From Luteibacter sp. Sphag1AF (lineage in GTDB: Bacteria > Pseudomonadota > Gammaproteobacteria > Xanthomonadales > Rhodanobacteraceae): a stretch of 64,000 bases of DNA. The position numbers and the translations under genes were made by a program. Shown here one piece after another: positions 25,749 to 38,029 of this stretch (the stretch's first letter is position 1; each line of letters begins with the position of its first letter). Below the pieces are notes generated by a model that saw only the letters and a program-made list of their open reading frames with translations, made no database searches and was not told where the DNA came from. The stretch covers positions 62,001-126,000 of the forward strand of contig NZ_JACHYH010000003.1 in the NCBI RefSeq assembly GCF_014192715.1, written 5' to 3'.

Positions 25749-27200
25749 TCAAGCCGTGAAGAGTGTCATGAAATCGTGAATCGGCATGGCATCAAGCTTT
25801 TCCGGCGAACTGGTGACCGCAAGAACCTGCGAAACCCGCTCCGCAGGCCATTCAGCGCGCAGTGCAGCCTCGAATTTCTTGAGAAGTACCGGGATGCCTT
25901 CGGCGCGGCGCTTGCGATGTCCGATCGGATAATCAATCGAAACTTTTTCCGAGCTGGTTCCATCCTTGAAAAACACCTGAACGGAATTGCCGATATAGCG
26001 CTTTTCTGAATCGAAGTAATCGCGGGTGAACTGCGGATTCTCTTTCACCGTCATTTTGTCTCGCAGCGCGTCGATACGCGGATCGGCGGCTACCGAGTCG
26101 TTGTAATCGTCGGCGGTGAGACGGCCGAAGATGAGCGGGACGGCCACCATGTACTGGATGCAGTGGTCACGGTCGGCGTAGTTGGCCAGGGGGCCCGTCT
26201 TGTCGATGATGCGGACGCCGGCTTCCTGAGTCTCGATGACGATCTTCTCGATGTCGTCAATGCGGTCCTTGACCACGTTGTGCAGCTGCATGGCGCATTC
26301 CACCGCAGTCTGGGCGTGGAATTCGGCCGGGAAGCTGATCTTGAAGAGCACGTTTTCCATCACGTAGCTGCCAAACGGACGCTCGAACTCGAACGCGTTG
26401 CCCTTGAAGGCCACGTCGTAGAAGCCCCAGGTCTTGGCCGTGAGGGCCGACGGGTAGCCGACCACGTTGCGGTACACGGCGTTGATCGCGTGGGTGACCG
26501 CGCGACGGCAGGCGTCACCGGCAGCCCAGCTCTTGCGCGGGCCGGTGTTCGGAGCGTGGCGGTACGTGCGCAGGGCGCCGTTGTCGATCCAGCTGTGAGA
26601 GACGGCCGTGGTGATCTCTTCCTTGCCGCCGCCGAGCATCGCGGTGGTAACGGCCGTGGAGGCCAGGCGGACGAGGATCACGTGATCCTGACCCACGCGG
26701 TTGAAGCTGTTCTTCAGCGCGTAGCAGCCCTGGATTTCGTGGGCCTTGATGGCATAGGTGAGCACGTCGCGCACCGTCAGCACCTTGCCACCTTCTTTCT
26801 CGGCCTTGCGGCTGAGGTAGTCGGCCACGGCCAGGATGGAGCCGAGATTGTCCGACGGATGACCCCACTCGGCGGCAAGCCAGGTGTCATTGAAATCGAG
26901 GTAACGGATCTGCGTGCCGATGGCGAACGCGGCCTGCACCGGGTCCAGTTCGTGAGAGGTGAACGGAACGCGGGCGCCGCCAGCCATCGTTGCGCCGGGA
27001 ACCAGCGGCCCCAGGTGCTTGACGCAGTCGGGGAACTTCATCGCGAGAGCCGAGCAGGCCAGCGAGTCCAGAAGCATGTACCGCGCGGTGTCGTATGCCT
27101 CGGTCGAGTCGATTTTGTAATCGGCGACGTAGTTGGCGATGTCGACCATCGGCTGGTCCGGATCAGGACGCGTAGCGGAACGGATGTCGTGTGCACTCAT
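25749..27200 (-). CDS. prpD: 2-methylcitrate dehydratase
   Basis: 483 residues from the ATG at 27200. A longer frame runs on to 28169 but its extra part is antisense to terC. PrpD dehydrates 2-methylcitrate to 2-methyl-cis-aconitate in propionate breakdown. Family motifs include YLDFNDTWLAAEWGHPSDN, GCYALKNSFNR and FKISFPAEFHAQTAVE. prpC and prpB lie more than 8 kb away (35.8-37.9 kb) rather than beside it. A CGGGGCC/GGCCCCG hairpin at 25711-25738 follows the stop. Confidence 0.95.
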   Translation of the reverse strand: MSAHDIRSATRPDPDQPMVDIANYVADYKIDSTEAYDTARYMLLDSLACSALAMKFPDCVKHLGPLVPGATMAGGARVPFTSHELDPVQAAFAIGTQIRYLDFNDTWLAAEWGHPSDNLGSILAVADYLSRKAEKEGGKVLTVRDVLTYAIKAHEIQGCYALKNSFNRVGQDHVILVRLASTAVTTAMLGGGKEEITTAVSHSWIDNGALRTYRHAPNTGPRKSWAAGDACRRAVTHAINAVYRNVVGYPSALTAKTWGFYDVAFKGNAFEFERPFGSYVMENVLFKISFPAEFHAQTAVECAMQLHNVVKDRIDDIEKIVIETQEAGVRIIDKTGPLANYADRDHCIQYMVAVPLIFGRLTADDYNDSVAADPRIDALRDKMTVKENPQFTRDYFDSEKRYIGNSVQVFFKDGTSSEKVSIDYPIGHRKRRAEGIPVLLKKFEAALRAEWPAERVSQVLAVTSSPEKLDAMPIHDFMTLFTA

Positions 27201-27298
27201 GAGGCTGTCTCGCGAGGGGGAAAACGACCATTTTAGCCTGCCGTCCGGCCCTAAGTCCTTGTGCACCGCGGCGTGAACGCCGACAATGGACGTACTAA

Positions 27299-27416
27299 GC
27301 CCAAGAGGGAGTAGTTCCAGCCCGGCATCTGATGCCCTGGCTGTGCGTCGATCGTCATCACGGATGCCCCATGCATCCCGGTCGCCGCTCCGGTTTCCCG
27401 GGAACGAGACTTTTGT
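27299..27416 (+). promoter_or_regulatory. yybP-ykoY (manganese) riboswitch upstream of terC
   Basis: The segment begins with AAGAGGGAGTAG and ends with GGAACGAGACTTTTG, the two conserved flanks of the yybP-ykoY class. Between them are paired stretches such as GGCATCTGATGCC and the GCATCC arms. This class senses Mn2+ and is known to control TerC/Alx and MntP genes. It lies about 70 nt before terC on the same strand, as expected. The assignment is from motif recall, not a covariance search. Confidence 0.85.
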
Positions 27417-28239: not shown

Positions 28240-29085
28240 TCAGAAGCGCACGCGAACGTACGCCGCCGGGCCGTTGAGCTTCATGTCCAGATCCAGGTCG
28301 TAGTCACGCTTGTCCTGGTGCAGCTTGATCTGGGTGTACGCGTACTCCGCGCCGAAGCCCACGTTCTTCCACGGGAAGTACTCGACACCGAGCGCAGCAT
28401 CCCAGATGTGACCGTTGAGCTTGCCGCCGCTCTTCTTCACGCCCGATGCGTTGAGGTACATGCGCCACTGGTCATTGAACGCGTGACGCCAGCCGAGCTG
28501 AAGATTGGGCGCCCATGCGCTGGCGCTGGTGCTCGCGCTGTCGGATACGGAGTCACCATTGAGGCTGGCCGAACCGGAGATGCTGCCACGCACCTTGTAG
28601 TACGCCGCACCCAGGCCAACGCCGAACACGTCGTCGCCGGTACCAAACCACCATTTGTACGCGGCGCTGCCGAAGTTGAACTTCAGGTCACCCTTGACGC
28701 GCGCGGTGGCGTCAAACGGCTGACCGAGGAAGTTGATGTCTTCGTTGAGCGTCTTGGAGTGGCTGCGGTCCACTTCGTAGTAGTCAAAGCTGAAACCCTG
28801 ATGTTCACCGATCAGGAAATCCAGACGTGCGCGCGGCACGGTCTTGCGCTTTTCGAAATCCAGATCGTGCTCAAGATTCACGCTGCCCTTCGTCGTGCGA
28901 TCAGGCGTGGCTGCACCGATGGTCGTATCGTTGTTGGCGTAGTAACCGCCGAGCCAGATGCTGATGTTGTCGAGTGCGGGCGACTGCGACTTGTTCTGAG
29001 CATGCGCGCCAGTGGCGACCATTGCCAGAGAAAGAACGGCAAGACCTGCGGTGGTCTTGCCCATATGACGGATGCGGCTACGCAT
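28240..29085 (-). CDS. Small outer-membrane beta-barrel protein
   Basis: 281 residues, start supported by AGGGAG. A signal peptide ends at GAHAQN. The mature part has alternating strands such as ISIWLGGYY, RLDFLIGEHQGFSFDYY, FGVGLGAAYYKV, NLQLGWRHAF and GFGAEYAYTQI, and ends in AAYVRVRF, the aromatic C-terminal signature for barrel assembly. It is not OmpA-like at the C-terminus. It lies 165 nt after the fap-like operon and behind its terminator, so it probably has its own promoter. Function unknown. Confidence 0.8.
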   Translation of the reverse strand: MRSRIRHMGKTTAGLAVLSLAMVATGAHAQNKSQSPALDNISIWLGGYYANNDTTIGAATPDRTTKGSVNLEHDLDFEKRKTVPRARLDFLIGEHQGFSFDYYEVDRSHSKTLNEDINFLGQPFDATARVKGDLKFNFGSAAYKWWFGTGDDVFGVGLGAAYYKVRGSISGSASLNGDSVSDSASTSASAWAPNLQLGWRHAFNDQWRMYLNASGVKKSGGKLNGHIWDAALGVEYFPWKNVGFGAEYAYTQIKLHQDKRDYDLDLDMKLNGPAAYVRVRF

Positions 29086-29250: not shown

Positions 29251-30624
29251 TCACAACGTCATAGGCAGACGCACCGTCACTGTGGTGTCAGGTGTATCGC
29301 GCGTGACGCCAACACCCAACGTGATGTTCAGCGTGCGCTTGTCGCTGAACCGATATGAGCCACCAATCAGAAGTGACCCAAGTACAGAACGCGCGGAACC
29401 CGCAAGCGGTTGTCCGTTCTGCTCCACTCGACCCACAAAACTCTGGTCGTAACCGATGCTGATGGATGCCTTCTCATTGAGCGCCAGGCCCATGCCGACG
29501 CTGACGTCTGCAATATCACCCGCCTTGACCGTGCCCAGATATTGTTTTCCCGCCAGAAGCACATTGCGGCTGACGTTGTATCGCGTGAAGTTGTGCAGAT
29601 AACTGAGGTTGCCAAAGAACACGACAGGGTCAGACGGATAGAGCCAGGTCACACCTGCCTGCGCGGAGTAGAAGCCTGTGCCAGTGGGAAGTTGCAAGGG
29701 CAAGCCGGTGCCGGTGGCGTTCTCGACGCAACGGGTCACGCAGTCAGTCGTGACTTCAAAGGGATCCCTGCCCGTGCGCGACTTGGCGCGGAACCAGCCC
29801 ACGTAATACGGCTTGTCGGCACCGCCGTCGTTGAGCTGGTAGCGCAATGTGGCTTCCACATCGCCGATGCCCTTGCCGCTGGATGTGAAAAGATTGTCCT
29901 GGGCTGTGCCGGTGAAAATTTCGCGACTGATCGTATCGGTATGGCCATCCGCGTAGGGAACGCGCACTTCCAGTTCCATGCGATTGGTCAGGCCATAGCG
30001 GGCGGCAATCGCTGCGGTTTGCGTCGTGGTTTTCACCTGACGGACGTCGATCAGGCCAATGAGGATGGCGGGAATGACGGTGTAGCCGACCAGTGCCACG
30101 CGGTCGCTGGAGGAATAGCCGTACTGATACGAAGGCTCGACGATGAGCTTTCCTTTCGGCGTGAGCACGCCGGGCTGATCGAAGATCGGCGCAACTTCCG
30201 GCGGACGATCTGCGGTGGCCGGCGCTTTGCCCACGGGCCCGGAAGTCTGCGCCACCGTGTCCTGCGTGGGCGCCTGCGGCGCACCGGAAGACGACGACGT
30301 GGGTGCGGCGGACTGGCCTGATGCCGCCAGCGAACCGGCACGGCTGGTATCCAGCGCGCTCAGTCCGACGGCTTTGCGAAGATCATTGAATTCGGCCTCC
30401 TGCTGGGCCAGTGCCCGCTTCATGTCTTCCAGCTGAGCGGCCTGTTCGGCCACCTTGCTGCGCATGGCGTCGAGCTTTTGTGATTGCGCGGCGACGCGAT
30501 CCCGCAATGCCGGATCAACCGGCGTATCGGTGGCCAGCGCGTTTCCTATGCTCCATGGCAGACACGCCATGAGAAGGGACCCCAGAACTTTCGCTGCGTG
30601 CGGATTCCTGCCGATCCGATGCAT
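29251..30624 (-). CDS. FapF-like outer-membrane amyloid secretion channel
   Basis: 457 residues. A signal-like N-terminus (to about residue 31) is followed by a coiled coil at about 40-86 (heptads in VAAQSQKLDAMRSKVAEQ), a Ser/Ala/Pro linker to about 145, then a beta-barrel that starts DQPGVLTPKGKLIVEPS and ends VTVRLPMTL. This architecture (trimerising coiled coil, linker, 12-strand barrel, the VLTPKG...EPS motif, and a following RYGLTNRMELEVRVPY) matches FapF, which exports Fap amyloid subunits. Neighbours include FapD- and FapE-like genes, which supports the call. It is separated by 3 nt from the FapE-like gene. Confidence 0.75.
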   Translation of the reverse strand: MHRIGRNPHAAKVLGSLLMACLPWSIGNALATDTPVDPALRDRVAAQSQKLDAMRSKVAEQAAQLEDMKRALAQQEAEFNDLRKAVGLSALDTSRAGSLAASGQSAAPTSSSSGAPQAPTQDTVAQTSGPVGKAPATADRPPEVAPIFDQPGVLTPKGKLIVEPSYQYGYSSSDRVALVGYTVIPAILIGLIDVRQVKTTTQTAAIAARYGLTNRMELEVRVPYADGHTDTISREIFTGTAQDNLFTSSGKGIGDVEATLRYQLNDGGADKPYYVGWFRAKSRTGRDPFEVTTDCVTRCVENATGTGLPLQLPTGTGFYSAQAGVTWLYPSDPVVFFGNLSYLHNFTRYNVSRNVLLAGKQYLGTVKAGDIADVSVGMGLALNEKASISIGYDQSFVGRVEQNGQPLAGSARSVLGSLLIGGSYRFSDKRTLNITLGVGVTRDTPDTTVTVRLPMTL

Positions 30625-30627
30625 ACG

Positions 30628-31290
30628 TCAATTACCCCTGAAGCGAACGACCGCGTCCTGAATGGTGTTGCTCAGCTGCGTACTGTCCAGTAGTCGCAGA
30701 CTGTTGACCGACGCGTTGATCGTGGTGGTGGCCGAGATGGCCTGATTGTCGAGCGAGTTCTGCACGACGAATGCGGGTACGGTGAGCGACTGCGCAGTCA
30801 ACGCAGGCAGCGAAGCGGTGGGCATGGTCCCGATGGCGGTGGGCACATTGGCCGCGCCGACGGAGGTTGGCGACACACTTGCCGCAGTCTGCACGGCCGA
30901 TGCCGCCGCAGCGGCCTGGGTGATCGCCGCACTGGTGGCCGCCGCAGACTGCGCCGTGTTTTGTGTGAGCACCGGATTGACACTGTTGCCCGCACCATTT
31001 GCAATGACGGTGGGGCCGAATGCCTGCGCGAGCGCGGTCGCCTGCGCGGCGGTGATCTTCGAGACGTCGGGAATGCTTATGCTGTTGCGCACCTGCGTCA
31101 TGCCGTCAACGATGACGGTGCGCTCGATGCCGAAGGATACTTTCAGGCCGTCACCGATATCGAAGCCGCCCCGCTCCGATTCCAGTCGCGCATCGGATAC
31201 AGGCGTCCATTCGTCGGCATGAGCATGGGACGCCAGGGCGCATGCGCCACATCCGGCGACCAGAAGAAACGAAGTGCGCTGAAGTTTCAT
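30628..31290 (-). CDS. FapE-like secreted protein
   Basis: 220 residues. A signal peptide (ends SHAHAD) is followed by LESERGGFDIGDGLKVSFGIER, seen here as ERGGFDIGDGLKVSFGIER, then an Ala/Gln/Ser-rich central region (about 100-170) and a C-terminal block FVVQNSLDNQAISATTTINA with SVNSLRLL. The RGGF-SFGIER start and the C-terminal NTT/IN pattern recall FapE, a minor fibre component. The start overlaps the C39 gene stop by 4 nt (ATGA). Function is inferred from context; the family match is not exact. Confidence 0.65.
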   Translation of the reverse strand: MKLQRTSFLLVAGCGACALASHAHADEWTPVSDARLESERGGFDIGDGLKVSFGIERTVIVDGMTQVRNSISIPDVSKITAAQATALAQAFGPTVIANGAGNSVNPVLTQNTAQSAAATSAAITQAAAAASAVQTAASVSPTSVGAANVPTAIGTMPTASLPALTAQSLTVPAFVVQNSLDNQAISATTTINASVNSLRLLDSTQLSNTIQDAVVRFRGN

Positions 31291-31970
31291 ATGTCACCTG
31301 GTCCCCGCTTGGGCATGACGATCGGAGCCAGTCCGTTGCGCTGGATGCCTTCGGCCAGTGGCGCGGACGGGGCGGCCTGCCAGTCGCGGGGACTGTTGAA
31401 GATCGCTTTGTCGCGCTCGTTATGGATGACGAACACGAGGTGGCTTTTCCACATGGCTTCAAACCGCTCTCGTGACATCGAATGCGTGCCGGTCGCCGGA
31501 TCTCCGACGAGAACGCGTCCGTATTGCATGCCCTTGACCACGACGAAGTGGTGATACCCGCGCTCGTTGATCAGCACGATGGCGGGAAGGCCCTGCTCCC
31601 TGAGCTTGTCCAGCGGCAGATCGAAACCGTCGGCTTCAAAGCCGCGCGTGGCGAGAAAGCGCTTGATGTCCAGCAACGAAAATCCTTCGCGGCGAATCTT
31701 GTCGCGATCGCCTGCGGCATACATCGCATCGAACGCCGTCTGTTCGTTGGTCGGCTCGCCGTACTGGAAGGTAAGCAGCGTGGCTACCGCCGCCGATCCG
31801 CAGCTGAAGTCGTACTTCTGATGGATGGTGTTGCGAAACCGCGCCTCTTTCAGGCTGGTCAGATGGAATGGATAGGAAACACCGGGACTGGTCTGAACTT
31901 CGGCCGTCGCGGCCCACGCGGGGCCGACGACACCGACGCATGCCAGCAGAAGCAGTCCCGCTGCTTTCAT
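31287..31970 (-). CDS. C39-family peptidase, FapD-like
   Basis: 227 residues. A signal peptide (ends PAWAA) is followed by a papain-like C39 domain with Cys57 in YDFSCGSAAVATLL, His141 in GYHHFVVVKG and Asp157 in LVGDPATG. The C39 fold is normally a maturation protease of peptide exporters; the periplasmic stand-alone form beside FapE/FapF genes is FapD, which is needed for Fap amyloid export. The gene overlaps its neighbours by 4 nt on both sides (ATGA), so the three are translated together. Confidence 0.85.
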   Translation of the reverse strand: MKAAGLLLLACVGVVGPAWAATAEVQTSPGVSYPFHLTSLKEARFRNTIHQKYDFSCGSAAVATLLTFQYGEPTNEQTAFDAMYAAGDRDKIRREGFSLLDIKRFLATRGFEADGFDLPLDKLREQGLPAIVLINERGYHHFVVVKGMQYGRVLVGDPATGTHSMSRERFEAMWKSHLVFVIHNERDKAIFNSPRDWQAAPSAPLAEGIQRNGLAPIVMPKRGPGDI

Positions 31971-32317
31971 TGCACAAGTCGCACGTTGATGATGGTGGCG
32001 TTCTGGATCAGGACGTTGTTGCCGGAGTTCTGAATGACGGTGGGCAAGCCTGCCGCCCCCTGGAATGAGTTGGCCTCGATGGCGTTCATGCCGGTGTTCA
32101 CATGACTGGCCTGGGCGTCACTGACGCTGCCGTCTGTGCTGATGCCGTTGGTTGTTGTATCGGTACCGCCTGACATGCTGCCCAGCGTGCTGCTGGCGAC
32201 GGCGGGCCCCAGTTCATTGCCGTCAGGTGGCGGCGTGGCGCAGGCGATGCCTGCGAAGCTGGCGATCCCCAGCGCGAGCAGTGTGGCTTGCAGGCGCGAA
32301 ACGGGTGGCGTGAACAT
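31967..32317 (-). CDS. Small secreted protein of the fap-like operon
   Basis: 116 residues with an AGGGAGAA site. A signal peptide (cleavage near ACATP) is followed by a Ser/Thr/Gly/Asn-rich mature part (LGSMSGGTDTTTNGIS, SVSDAQASHVNTGMNAI) and a C-terminal motif VIQNSGNNVLIQNATIINV. The pattern suggests a minor subunit, nucleator or chaperone comparable to FapA/FapB. It shares its C-terminal motif with the large Gly-rich protein and the FapE-like protein. I cannot assign it to one Fap component. Confidence 0.65.
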   Translation of the reverse strand: MFTPPVSRLQATLLALGIASFAGIACATPPPDGNELGPAVASSTLGSMSGGTDTTTNGISTDGSVSDAQASHVNTGMNAIEANSFQGAAGLPTVIQNSGNNVLIQNATIINVRLVQ

Positions 32318-32344
32318 GACTTTCTCCCTGCGGGATGGAAGAAA

Positions 32345-32374
32345 GTCCGCGGTGCGATGAAGCGCACCGCGGAC
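32345..32374 (-). terminator. Hairpin between the Gly-rich subunit gene and the rest of the fap-like operon
   Basis: A perfect 12-bp GC-rich stem GTCCGCGGTGCG / CGCACCGCGGAC with a 6-nt loop lies 14 nt after the stop of the Gly-rich gene; only TTTC follows on the minus strand. It could partly terminate transcription or protect the 3' end of the upstream message, giving more of the first product. Confidence 0.6.
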
Positions 32375-32387
32375 CTCACGTGCTACC

Positions 32388-33380
32388 TCAGTGACCCACG
32401 TTCAGATTCGCCTGGACGTTTACGCTCTGCTGAAGGAGCGAAGCGCCACCGGTGTTCTGCGCGATCACGAGTACACCCGCCGCCGCCGCGCCAGCGCCTT
32501 CCATGTGGTTGGCCATGTCGAAGCTGCCCGCATCGACACTGTTCGACCCACCTGCGCCGCCCGCGCCACCGGATGCTCCACTTCCGGCACCGCCGGACCC
32601 TGAACCGCCTGCGCCGCCCGCTGCGCCCGCACCCGCTGATGCGGTTGCGTCGCCGCTTGCACCGCCAACACCCATGCCATCACCGCTGGTGCTGGTGGAT
32701 GCACCTGACGTGCCTGCGCCGCCCGTGCTGGCGCTTGCGCCGCCGGTGGACGAGCCACCACCGTTGCGTACGCGAGCCAGGCCGCCATCGCCATCTGCTG
32801 CGCCGCCTGCGGATGAACTGAGCGCGCCAGAATCGCCGCTTGCGCCGCCGCCGTCACCGGCCGCGCCACTATGTGAACGGGAATTGCCGCCAGCGCCGCC
32901 GGAGCCGCCGCGACCACCGCTACCCGTGGCACCGTAGCCCGCACCGCCGGAACCGCCACGGCCACCCGCCGCGCTGCCCGTGTTGCTGGCAATATTGCCG
33001 TTGCTCATCGTGGTGACGCCGGTCACTTCACCGCTGAGGTTGATCTCGGCGATGGCGTTGCTGACATTGAACGAATCGGAGAGCGATGCGCTTGCGGTGC
33101 CGCCATTGTTGGCCGATGCACTGCCCTGGCCCGTGGCATACGCATCACCACTGTTGCCGCGCATGTTGCCGTTGTCCTGATTGGACTGATCGCTGTAGTG
33201 CGTGCTGGAATTGTTGTTCTGATTCGAGTTGTTTGCGTTGTCTGTCGATGTGGTCTGTGTGGCTGTCGAGTGCCGCTGGGCAGACGCACCTGCGCCGCCA
33301 GTGAGCGTGTCGTCGGCCATCGCCGGAAGGGCGAAGCCGATGCCGATGCAGATCGCGGTAGCGAGCAAGGTCTTACGCAT
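32388..33380 (-). CDS. Gly/Ala/Ser-rich secreted protein, candidate amyloid subunit
   Basis: 330 residues with an AGGAGA site. A signal peptide (ends PAMADD), an Asn/Gln/Ser/Thr-rich stretch (about 38-95), a segment SFNVSNAIAEINLSGEV near 103-119, a low-complexity Gly/Ala/Ser region (about 137-280, GGSGG and GGAGG runs), and a conserved-looking tail at 303-330 ending QNTGGASLLQQSVNVQANLN. The tail resembles the Q/N-rich motifs of Fap and curli subunits, but classic 30-40-residue Fap repeats are absent. It is the first gene of the operon, the position of the structural genes. It might instead be a minor adhesin-like partner. Confidence 0.65.
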   Translation of the reverse strand: MRKTLLATAICIGIGFALPAMADDTLTGGAGASAQRHSTATQTTSTDNANNSNQNNNSSTHYSDQSNQDNGNMRGNSGDAYATGQGSASANNGGTASASLSDSFNVSNAIAEINLSGEVTGVTTMSNGNIASNTGSAAGGRGGSGGAGYGATGSGGRGGSGGAGGNSRSHSGAAGDGGGASGDSGALSSSAGGAADGDGGLARVRNGGGSSTGGASASTGGAGTSGASTSTSGDGMGVGGASGDATASAGAGAAGGAGGSGSGGAGSGASGGAGGAGGSNSVDAGSFDMANHMEGAGAAAAGVLVIAQNTGGASLLQQSVNVQANLNVGH

Positions 33381-35761
<2,381 letters not shown>

Positions 35762-35827: not shown

Positions 35828-36976
35828 TCAACGCTTCTCGATGGGCACGTAGACCTGATCTTCCGGACCCGTGTAGTTCGCACTCGGGCGGATGATCTTT
35901 CCATCTTCGCGCTGCTCGATCACGTGCGCGCTCCAGCCCGACGTGCGGGCCAGCACGAACAGCGGCGTGAACATGGCGGTGGGCACACCCATCATGTGAT
36001 ACGCCGAGGCCGAGTACCAGTCGAGATTGGGGAACATCTTCTTCTGCTCCCACATCAGTTTCTCGATGCGCTCGGACACGTCGAACAGGCGCGGGTTGCC
36101 GCCGTCGGTGCAGAGCTTGCGCGCGATTTCCTTGATGATCTCGTTGCGCGGATCGGACACGGTGTACACCGGATGGCCGAAACCGATGATGATTTCCTTG
36201 CGCTCAACGCGCGCACGGATATCCGCTTCAGCCTCGCTGGCGTTGCGATAGCGCGCGATGATTTCCATCGCCACCTCGTTGGCGCCGCCATGCTTCGGAC
36301 CACGCAGCGCGCCGATGGCACCGGTGATGGCCGAGTAGATGTCCGAACCGGTACCGGCGATGACGCGTGCCGTGAACGTACTGGCATTGAACTCGTGCTC
36401 GGCGTACAGCACCAGCGAACGGTCCAGTGCGTGTGCGTGCAGTTCGCTGGCCTTGCGACCGTGCAGCAGGTGCAGAAAGTGCGCGGCGATGGAGTCATCG
36501 TCCGTCTCGGTTTCGATGCGCTTGCCGTTGTGGCTGAAGTGGTACCAGTACAGCAGCATGGAACCGAAGCTCGCCATCAGGCGATCCGCGATGTCGCGAG
36601 CGCCGGTGACGTTGTGATCTTCCTTCTCCGGAAGCACGGTGCCCAGCACCGATGCACCCGTGCGCAGCACGTCCATCGGATGGGTGGCGGCGGGAAGCAG
36701 CTCCATCGCGCTCTTGACCGGCGCAGGCAGGCCACGCAGGCGCTTCAGCTTGGCGCGATAGGCATTGAGCTCGGTCCAGTTCGGCAGCACGCCGTGAACC
36801 AGCAGGTAAGCCACTTCCTCGAAGCAGCCCTTCGCGGCGAGGTCATGAATGTCGTAGCCGCGGTAATGCAGGTCGTTACCGCTGCGACCCACCGTGCAGA
36901 GCGCGGTGTTGCCAGCGGCGACGCCGGACAGCGCAACGGATTTCTTTGCCTTGGGCAACGTGGATGTATCGCTCAT
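35828..36976 (-). CDS. prpC: 2-methylcitrate synthase
   Basis: 382 residues, the length of the short bacterial citrate-synthase type. It condenses propionyl-CoA with oxaloacetate. Active-site motifs: [20 protein letters not shown] with its conserved His, GPKHGGANE with the catalytic His, and [12 protein letters not shown]. It lies 49 nt after prpB, so the pair is an operon. Some members also accept acetyl-CoA; the methylcitrate assignment relies on the prpB neighbour and prpD in the window. Confidence 0.95.
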
Positions 36977-37025
36977 CAGAACAATCTCCTTGACGCATGA
37001 AACGTGACGTTACGTAGGGAAGCGA

Positions 37026-37913
37026 TCAACCTTTCTTCGAGAACAACTCGTCGAGGCGACGCTCATATTCGTGGTAACCAATGCGGTCGTACAGTTCTTC
37101 GCGCGTCTGCATCGTGTCGATGACATTGCGCTGATGACCATCACGACGAATGGCGGTGTACACATTCTCGGCCGCCTTGTTCATGGCGCGGAATGCGGAA
37201 AGCGGATACAGCACGATGCCGACGCCGACACTGGCCAGTTCTTCCACGCTGAAGAGCGGGGTCTGGCCGAACTCGGTGATGTTGGCCAGCACGGGCACTT
37301 TGACGGCATCGACGAAGCGCTGATACGTGGCAAGGTCGTACGCCGCCTCGGCGAAGATGCCATCAGCCCCTGCTTCCACGCAGGCGATGGCGCGCTCGAT
37401 GGCAGCATCCACGCCCTGGGCAGCGATGGCATCGGTGCGGGCGATGAGGAAGAAGTCGGCATCGGTCTTTGCGTCGGCGGCCGCCTTGACGCGGTCGGCC
37501 ATTTCTTCCGTCGTGACAATTTCCTTGCCCGGACGATGACCGCAGCGCTTCGCTCCCACCTGGTCTTCGATGTGGCAGGCGGCGGCGCCAGACTTGATGA
37601 GGCTCTTGACCGTGCGGGCGATGTTGAATGCGCTGGGACCGAAGCCGGTGTCGATGTCGACCATCAGCGGCAGGTCGCACACGTCGGTGATGCGACGCAC
37701 GTCGGTCAACACGTCGTCCATCGTGTTGATGCCAAGGTCAGGCAGACCCAGTGAACCGGCAGCCACGCCGCCGCCCGACAGGTAGATGGCGCGATAGCCT
37801 GCACGCTTTGCCAGCAGCGCATGGTTCGCGTTGATCGCGCCGATGACCTGCAGCGGATGCTCCGCTGCCAGCGCGGCCCTGAATTGCGCGCCGGGTGATG
37901 CAAGCTGTGCCAT
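37026..37913 (-). CDS. prpB: 2-methylisocitrate lyase
   Basis: 295 residues from the ATG at 37913 with a GGAG-like site; a longer frame to 37988 is not supported. It splits 2-methylisocitrate into pyruvate and succinate. The catalytic cysteine Cys124 lies in KRCGHRPGK, the isocitrate-lyase superfamily motif. MVDIDTGFG provides metal-binding Asp residues. It is the first gene of the prpB-prpC pair and is divergent from the symporter gene. No prpR activator gene is beside it. Confidence 0.96.
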
Positions 37914-38029
37914 GGAACACTCCGCGTAAAACCGGGATTTTAGCGCAGGCATGTGACTTTCCACTCGCTGCAACGCGTCATGCGGCACCTGACCGTGACG
38001 AACCGGTACATCCCGGTTACAGTCGAGAC

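Follow-up and report, generated by a model that had tools for sequence, protein, structure and literature searches.

A FapD-FapF-type operon of Luteibacter sp. Sphag1AF that probably exports and assembles an extracellular fibre

What is exported by a periplasmic C39 peptidase, a FapE-like protein and a FapF-like channel when their operon encodes none of the classic Fap repeats? The question is raised by a 64,000-nucleotide stretch of DNA from Luteibacter sp. Sphag1AF (contig NZ_JACHYH010000003.1, positions 62,001 to 126,000 of the forward strand), hereafter the window, in which five genes, here called A to E, lie together on the minus strand. A preliminary description, made from the sequence alone, had read them as a divergent Fap-like functional-amyloid operon with a new type of subunit. 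We present here a computational analysis of this locus, which indicates that it is probably an export and assembly operon for an extracellular, probably amyloid-like, fibre. The operon is of the FapD-FapF kind and appears to belong to a lineage separate from Fap and Fil, in which the peptidase would act on double-glycine leaders of two co-encoded proteins.

Gene organization

The operon consists of the following genes, given in the order of transcription with the lengths of their open reading frames (ORFs).

32388..33380, minus strand: gene A, secreted Gly/Ala/Ser-rich protein, 330 amino acids (aa)
31967..32317, minus strand: gene B, small secreted protein with a predicted C39-type leader and probably one Fap-like repeat, 116 aa
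31287..31970, minus strand: gene C, periplasmic C39 peptidase, FapD/FilB-like, 227 aa
30628..31290, minus strand: gene D, FapE-like secreted protein with a predicted double-glycine leader, 220 aa
29251..30624, minus strand: gene E, FapF-like outer-membrane channel, 457 aa

The five minus-strand ORFs at 29251-33380 and their lengths agree with the preliminary description, as does the close packing of the last four: B/C and C/D overlap by 4 nucleotides (nt) each and D is separated from E by 3 nt. The gap between A and B is 70 nt. Each of the five proteins starts with a Sec-type signal sequence, as judged by eye. Whole-genome searches covered 4,182,146 bases of Luteibacter sp. Sphag1AF and found no second copy of E in that genome (E<=0.001) and no other convincing match to A or B; the end of A gave a single further match, which was B itself (E 0.115), and B gave one at E 0.5 with a stop inside. 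No Pfam or NCBIfam model came near a cut-off with A, B or D.

Peptidase and channel

C belongs to peptidase family C39. It passes the cut-off of Pfam PF03412 (Peptidase C39; 5.5e-20, 72 bits, cut-off 22) and contains the catalytic Gln/Cys/His/Asp residues, with Gln51, Cys57, His141 and Asp157 invariant in all 20 aligned relatives; the last three are those named in the preliminary description. The closest solved structure by sequence is the double-glycine protease 6mpz (3.8e-7). Among NCBIfam models, C matches FapD (1.2e-39, 135.9 bits; curated equivalog cut-off of 330 not reached) and FilB (5.8e-38, 130.8 bits; cut-off of 475 not reached).

E matches the NCBIfam FapF model (7.5e-45, 153.5 bits; curated equivalog cut-off of 700 not reached), the match on which the preliminary description had made its reading depend, and FilC at 5e-10 (39.3 bits; cut-off of 630 not reached). 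By sequence, it aligns with FapF crystal chains at 2e-27 across residues 143-454. A single-chain AlphaFold2 model of E was built from 22 sequences (mean predicted local distance difference test [pLDDT] score 64.8); in a Foldseek search with it, the 18 best matches were all FapF chains, with 5o65 at the top (E 8.6e-19), followed by a COG4313 channel. The protein has an N-terminal coiled coil at about residues 38-102 and a barrel at about residues 156-457. C is homologous to FapD and E to FapF, and family model, crystal-chain sequence and predicted fold agree that the 457-residue product is a FapF-like channel.

Related loci and phylogeny

Related loci were drawn from three sources. In 61 kin-sampled genomes, including that of Sphag1AF, E was present at E<=0.001 in 34, and it was present in 21 of the 22 other genomes of the genus Luteibacter. 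Apart from the window itself, this search gave 29 close and 7 distant matches, the latter at 27-30% identity, and wide neighbourhoods were fetched for 17 of the former and all 7 of the latter. The gene order A-B-C-D-E is kept in all 17 fetched close loci (in L037 and L038 the match to A is weaker than 1e-6 and visible only in a second comparison of close loci), and the conservation of A to E among close loci is far beyond chance. At the seven distant loci only C and E match; these are textbook fap operons with three repeats each in FapB and FapC.

A second source was a FapD-model search of 398 genomes of the phylum, which gave a match in 93, with 8 above the cut-off; most of the weak matches among the 93 lie within long ATP-binding cassette (ABC)-type proteins. 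Thirty neighbourhoods from these hits were sorted by eye into 10 of the Fap type, 12 of the present type, 5 of the Fil type, 2 outliers and 1 truncated locus. L106, in which B is truncated, was left out of the deeper loci, leaving 12. Eight of these 12 have no FapF-like gene on the operon strand, yet all eight have one on the opposite strand, which in seven follows closely behind D and is oriented towards it and in L107 lies upstream. In L104 a called 74-aa ORF lies between D and the opposite-strand FapF-like gene. Judged by eye, the FapF-like proteins of L102, L104, L105 and L115 have a short N-terminus, seemingly without the coiled coil of the window's E. L097 (4924-9370, genome G195) contains a tandem duplicate of B-C-D, identical in the parts compared.

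The third source was the set of GTDB representative genomes, which gave at least 595 pattern matches and at least 561 stretches encoding a relative of C, not all necessarily of this lineage. The best 80 of these at least 561 stretches are referred to as the named loci. Their genera include Luteibacter, Dyella, Rhodanobacter, Lysobacter, Luteimonas, Pseudoxanthomonas, Ralstonia, Burkholderia, Paraburkholderia, Cupriavidus and Massilia, which we take to place nearly all of them in the orders Xanthomonadales and Burkholderiales. All 80 contain B and D as well as one or more A-like genes (A-like ORFs counted at E<1e-8; B located by a model of its last 46 residues). Two A-like ORFs were found in seven, the Paraburkholderia loci L148, L151, L175, L176, L178, L188 and L189, where they lie upstream of B.

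A tree of 50 C39 proteins included 28 of the present type (from 9 of the 18 close loci, all 12 deeper loci and 7 of the 80 named loci), 16 Fap, 4 Fil and the 2 outliers; it is unrooted, and some of its branches are long. The present type falls on one side of a branch with support 98/95, and the corresponding values are 94/71 for Fap and 100/100 for Fil. In this sequence tree, C appears in a separate group next to those of Fap and Fil.

The present type thus forms an apparently unnamed third and widespread lineage of putative fibre export of the FapD-FapF kind, and within Xanthomonadales and Burkholderiales it may rank among the more widespread fibre systems. No paper naming it was found in a literature search, mostly of open-access papers. 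Parts of the lineage may have been seen already, since fapD-fapF pairs are recorded in five further phyla in one study (PMC6173800).

Double-glycine leaders of B and D

Two features that were absent from the preliminary description, the leaders of B and D and a sigma-54-like site treated further below, bear on how such a system would work. Both leaders are of the C39 type and are positioned behind the Sec signal.

32165..32200, minus strand: double-glycine leader of B (P12 Val40, P7 Leu45, P4 Met48, GG 50-51), predicted cut after Gly51
31165..31200, minus strand: double-glycine leader of D (P12 Val31, P7 Leu36, P4 Glu39, RGG 40-42), predicted cut after Gly42

Models lacking the leader were used to locate B and D in the 80 named loci, and the leader was read afterwards, so that the counts are not circular. 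B carries L/I-x3-[RSTC]-GG in 80 of 80 and D carries RGG in 79 of 80, with RAG in the remaining one; the residue-shuffle expectation, for looser patterns, is 15.1/80 for B and 12.0/80 for D. Because the named loci are related, these counts represent conservation and not independent events. P7 is Leu in all 80 B and all 80 D, the residue at P12 is one of Val, Ile, Leu and Met in 74 B and 77 D, and P4 of D is Met, Val or Leu in 59. B and D thus show the marks of double-glycine substrates, hydrophobic P12, P7 and P4 with GG, GA or GS at P2-P1, P4 being the looser position. In sequence, the two leaders resemble the pattern recognized by LahT150, whose hydrophobic groove holds leader residues -4, -7 and -12 of a short helix and whose narrow pocket holds the GG, as described in a structural study (PMC6363468). 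Compared with each other by hhalign, the B and D leaders score 52.84%, with 0/100 shuffles as high. A has no conserved leader of the double-glycine kind.

The D site was also read from an alignment of 27 of the 29 D sequences (L099 and L100 excluded), of which the 18 close ones were found by similarity alone and the 9 deeper rows were chosen with a pattern containing RGG. Mean column identity is 27%; R40, G41 and G42 are the sole invariant columns, and L36 and F43 are nearly invariant. When the site was read again with a leaderless model built from the 18 close D, it was recovered in 8 of the 12 deeper loci (L096, L097, L098, L100, L101, L103, L107 and L115); L099, L104 and L105 matched and were aligned off the site, and L102 was unmatched. 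The D of L101, which carries the site as well, had been overlooked by the gene caller. In an AlphaFold2 model of D (mean pLDDT 65.3, a low confidence), residues 33-39, or P10 to P4, are predicted as a helix shortly before the GG.

Relationship of D to FapE and the substrate of FapD

No FapE family model matched D in the libraries scanned, and a purpose-built FapE profile was therefore compared with D by hhalign. The leader region of D and what comes behind it (29 sequences) match FapE (14 sequences) at 94.55% (E 7.4e-8, 0/100 column shuffles as high), and the C-termini of the two give no match (4%). D is, as far as profile comparison goes, a distant homologue of FapE at its N-terminus. A FapE homologue, recognizable in its N-terminal region only, is therefore encoded between the FapD- and FapF-like genes; the earlier designation of the 220-residue protein as FapE-like holds for this region and does not extend to the C-terminus.

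At the FapE site itself, the 14 sequences show Leu or Met in P7 and Gly in P2, with P1 occupied by Arg or Lys and followed by an aromatic residue; this count is circular because they were chosen with patterns containing the site. An independent model, of the part behind the site and built from five FapE, recovered it in 11 further FapE (L050, L051, L086-L089, two in L090, L091, L093 and L094), nine of which come from loci already among the 14 or are second copies, and so are re-findings and not all new sequences. In L092 and L095 this model failed to place the site, which was seen only with the site-containing pattern. The shared leader region and the residues of the FapE site suggest that the D site is the FapE site with Gly replacing Arg/Lys. 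An exchange of G and R at one B site within the lineage (see below) would likewise link the GG seen here to the GR of FapE.

These sites bear on the target of FapD. In a 2017 study (PMC5557850), FapC secretion requires the active-site Cys of FapD; the FapD target is described there as unclear, and the Fap proteins as lacking canonical C39 sequences. The same study proposes FapE as a candidate substrate owing to its GG and GA motifs, and reports that peptides from its first ~70 residues were unseen in mass spectrometry and that it was the sole Fap protein with complete N-terminal processing; cleavage of the FapF linker was likewise considered possible (PMC5557850). A 2025 review states that FapE and FapF are thought to be processed by FapD (PMC12822426). 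In the sister lineage described here, two proteins encoded with the peptidase carry canonical sites, and one of the two is the FapE homologue. This supports the FapE idea, would add a second substrate and names the exact bond, so that the long-standing question of FapD's substrate becomes directly testable.

C-terminal modules

Short modules at the ends of A, B and D connect the three secreted proteins.

32391..32564, minus strand: C-terminal module of A (VIAQNTG..SLLQQSVNVQANL), 75% mean column identity over 11 rows
31982..32089, minus strand: Fap-repeat-like unit at the end of B, from hhalign against FapB/FapC repeats
30703..30789, minus strand: C-terminal module of D (VVQNSLDNQAISATTTINASVN), from hhalign against the B C-terminus

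A profile of the last 50 residues of B, from 110 C-termini, matches a profile of 97 FapB/FapC repeats at 86.68% (E 4.4e-6), with 36 columns in register and 0/400 column shuffles as high. Neither reversed B nor the ends of C and E, used as controls, matched Fap repeats. The C-termini of A and D are in turn related to that of B: A ends match B ends at 94.39% and D ends match them at 94.59% (E 6.9e-8), in both cases with 0/200 shuffles as high. Of 110 B sequences, 101 have the spacing GX4.X3GX6N at their C-terminal end, and 98 of 103 A sequences have a similar one with Q or N there, both counts being without a chance control. From these profile comparisons, B probably carries one degenerate Fap-type unit, to which A and D are tied by way of B, and B would be a minimal Fap-type unit with its single repeat.

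The classic Fap repeat GX4NX3GX6N does not occur in the window's A or B, in agreement with the preliminary description; among the A and B proteins of all 18 loci it occurs once, in the L042 B. The further claim of a new type of subunit survives in this absence of classic repeats and is qualified by the degenerate Fap-type repeat with which B ends and by the kinship of the A and D termini with that of B.

Promoter-like site and flanking genes

33465..33480, minus strand: sigma-54 (-24/-12) promoter-like site upstream of A (AGGCACGCTTATTGCT), one mismatch to TGGCACGN4TTGCW

Taken alone, the site is not significant, as the window contains 3 such sites against 1.13 expected and 9/100 shuffles contain as many. 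Its weight comes from its conservation in the close loci: 17 of 18 have GGYAYGN4TTGC no more than 150 bp upstream of A, with one other match in the 360,034 strand-bases there. The site fits a report on Pseudomonas fluorescens PF07, in which fapA is under the control of the cyclic di-GMP-sensing enhancer-binding protein BrfA (PMC13101488). In L096, L097, L102 and L105, an opposite-strand gene of 441-483 aa beside the FapF-like gene looks, by eye, like a sigma-54 enhancer-binding regulator.

Directly downstream of E, at 28240-29085 of the window, lies a gene for an outer-membrane beta-barrel protein (PF13505, 6.7e-8). Genes that we take from their translations to be PrpD-like, citrate synthase-like (PrpC) and PrpB-like flank the operon on both sides (window 25749-27300 and 35828-37988), so that the fibre operon seems to be inserted in a split methylcitrate-cycle cluster.

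Proposed mechanism and alternatives

The mechanism that we consider probable, taken as a whole, is as follows. Transcription would begin at the sigma-54 promoter, and Sec would carry all five proteins into the periplasm. There, C would cleave B and D behind the double glycine, in the manner of bacteriocin-type C39 domains, and so remove a second leader from each. A and the mature forms of B and D would exit by way of the E barrel; E may be a trimer, as FapF is. B, whose end corresponds to one Fap-type repeat, and D, the FapE-like partner, may start or anchor growth, and A would form the bulk glycine-rich polymer, ending in a module related to that of B. A is likely the main fibre or matrix subunit and B likely a minor subunit or nucleator.

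Several observations weigh against this reading. The NCBIfam scores of both C and E lie under the Fap cut-offs, and the AlphaFold2 models of D and E are low in mean confidence (65.3 and 64.8). Longer profiles of B weaken the repeat match, to 76.19% from leader to end (4/100 shuffles as high) and to 10.7% for the whole protein. Direct comparison of the A and D ends with Fap repeats gave no match, 104/200 and 85/200 shuffles scoring as high; a direct kinship of these ends to Fap repeats was rejected, and only the route via B holds. The sigma-54 site is not general, as it was found in 20 of 71 wider named loci (with rough start calls; 9 more loci at contig edges were skipped). P4 is looser in B, where it is Leu, Met or Val in 45 of the 80 named loci and His or Tyr in 26, and the window's own D has an acidic P4, Glu39; in the LahT study, variants with an acidic residue at P4 were left unprocessed (PMC6363468). 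Finally, B has GG in 8 of the 12 deeper loci and GR in 4, which together with the GR/GK of FapE shows that P1 is not fixed.

The best-surviving alternative, which we regard as somewhat unlikely, is the secretion of a surface adhesin or matrix gel, in which A would be a non-amyloid glycine-rich polymer and B and D would be export or anchoring factors and not fibre subunits. A-like ORFs are indeed rich in Gly (median ~26% in 87 stop-to-stop ORFs) and of low complexity, with a very variable middle, and the A C-terminus lacks the direct Fap-repeat match noted above. In addition, the cousin Fil structures of Acinetobacter Tol 5 are called fimbriae in one paper (PMC3498257). What speaks against this alternative is that B has a single repeat and that A and D have related ends, which suggests one shared stacking module.

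A reading of the locus as a divergent but ordinary fap operon, which could be filed under Fap, is improbable. The matches of C and E to the FapD and FapF models, the FapE-like D and the retained order D-E-F all speak for such a filing. However, the scores of C and E are under half of the cut-offs, no FapB or FapC with classic repeats is present and no FapA-like gene was recognized. B was considered as a FapA equivalent and is not supported as one, since hhalign against four FapA gave 10.3%; a leader-like ELSDxD motif is present in several FapA. Genomes G024, G029 and G037 hold both the Luteibacter-type system and a true fap operon at separate places, which argues for a paralogous system and not a degraded fap. 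Together, the sub-cut-off scores, the near-equal FilB match and the separate tree group (98/95) indicate that the operon is not simply fap, so that the Fap-like operon of the preliminary description is better called a Fap-related secretion system.

The last alternative, that the C39 protein serves an exporter of bacteriocins or of ribosomally synthesized and post-translationally modified peptides with its neighbours as the peptides, would fit the double-glycine leaders and the double-glycine protease that is the closest solved structure to C by sequence. It is rejected as highly improbable. C, on whose exporter role the preliminary description would have fallen, is the sole Peptidase_C39 match (E <= 0.001) anywhere in the genome; the protein lacks an ABC domain and, judged by eye, starts with a Sec-type signal. 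It is encoded with a FapF-like channel and with B and D, which bear Sec-type signals themselves, also by eye.

Beyond the probable fibre-export reading, we tentatively propose a unified class, which we hold to be possible at somewhat less than even chances. In it, all periplasmic FapD/FilB-type C39 peptidases would be second-stage leader peptidases acting on Sec-exported starter subunits, with a leader that has hydrophobic P12, P7 and P4, Gly at P2 and a P1 that has drifted (G here, R/K in FapE, Q in FilA). The third lineage, probably in hundreds of species, would keep the canonical GG and build surface fibres of an as yet unnamed class, in which a Fap-like protein with one repeat nucleates a glycine-rich polymer.

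Comparison with known systems

Like curli (Csg), the present system would pass its product through a dedicated outer-membrane channel and assemble it extracellularly; it differs in that no operon protein matches a Csg family in Pfam or NCBIfam to E=1. With the double-glycine peptidases of AMS/PCAT exporters (LahT150, ComA), C shares the Peptidase C39 Gln/Cys/His/Asp residues and presumed substrates with hydrophobic P12, P7 and GG. Unlike them, C is free-standing with a Sec-type signal, and the proteins that it presumably cuts have already crossed the inner membrane.

The Fil system (NCBIfam "putative pilus system" FilB, FilC) is similar in the scores of C, which are nearly equal for FilB and FapD (130.8 and 135.9 bits), and in the FapF-like gene beside the C39 gene in Fil-type loci. 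The proteins of these loci that we call FilA-like, a label that is not an annotation, carry a leader-like L..VTGQ motif. In L109-L112 they have a conserved [LM].D..[LM]..[VA]TGQ.G[IL] behind the signal sequence, a possible leader for FilB. In the papers on this system, the protein named is FilA of Acinetobacter Tol 5. Fil differs in the weak match of E to FilC (5e-10) and its separate tree group, and the present operon has no FilA-like gene and no large neighbour gene such as the 529-553 aa one of Fil-type loci.

From Fap of Pseudomonas (FapABCDEF), the operon differs in having a glycine-rich A in place of multi-repeat (GX4NX3GX6N) FapB/FapC, no recognized FapA-like gene, one degenerate repeat in B, GG in the B and D leaders against GR or GK in FapE, and its own group in the C39 tree. 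It shares with Fap the periplasmic C39 peptidase, the FapE-like partner and the coiled-coil and barrel channel in the order D-E-F, together with a secreted partner that carries a Fap-type repeat unit.

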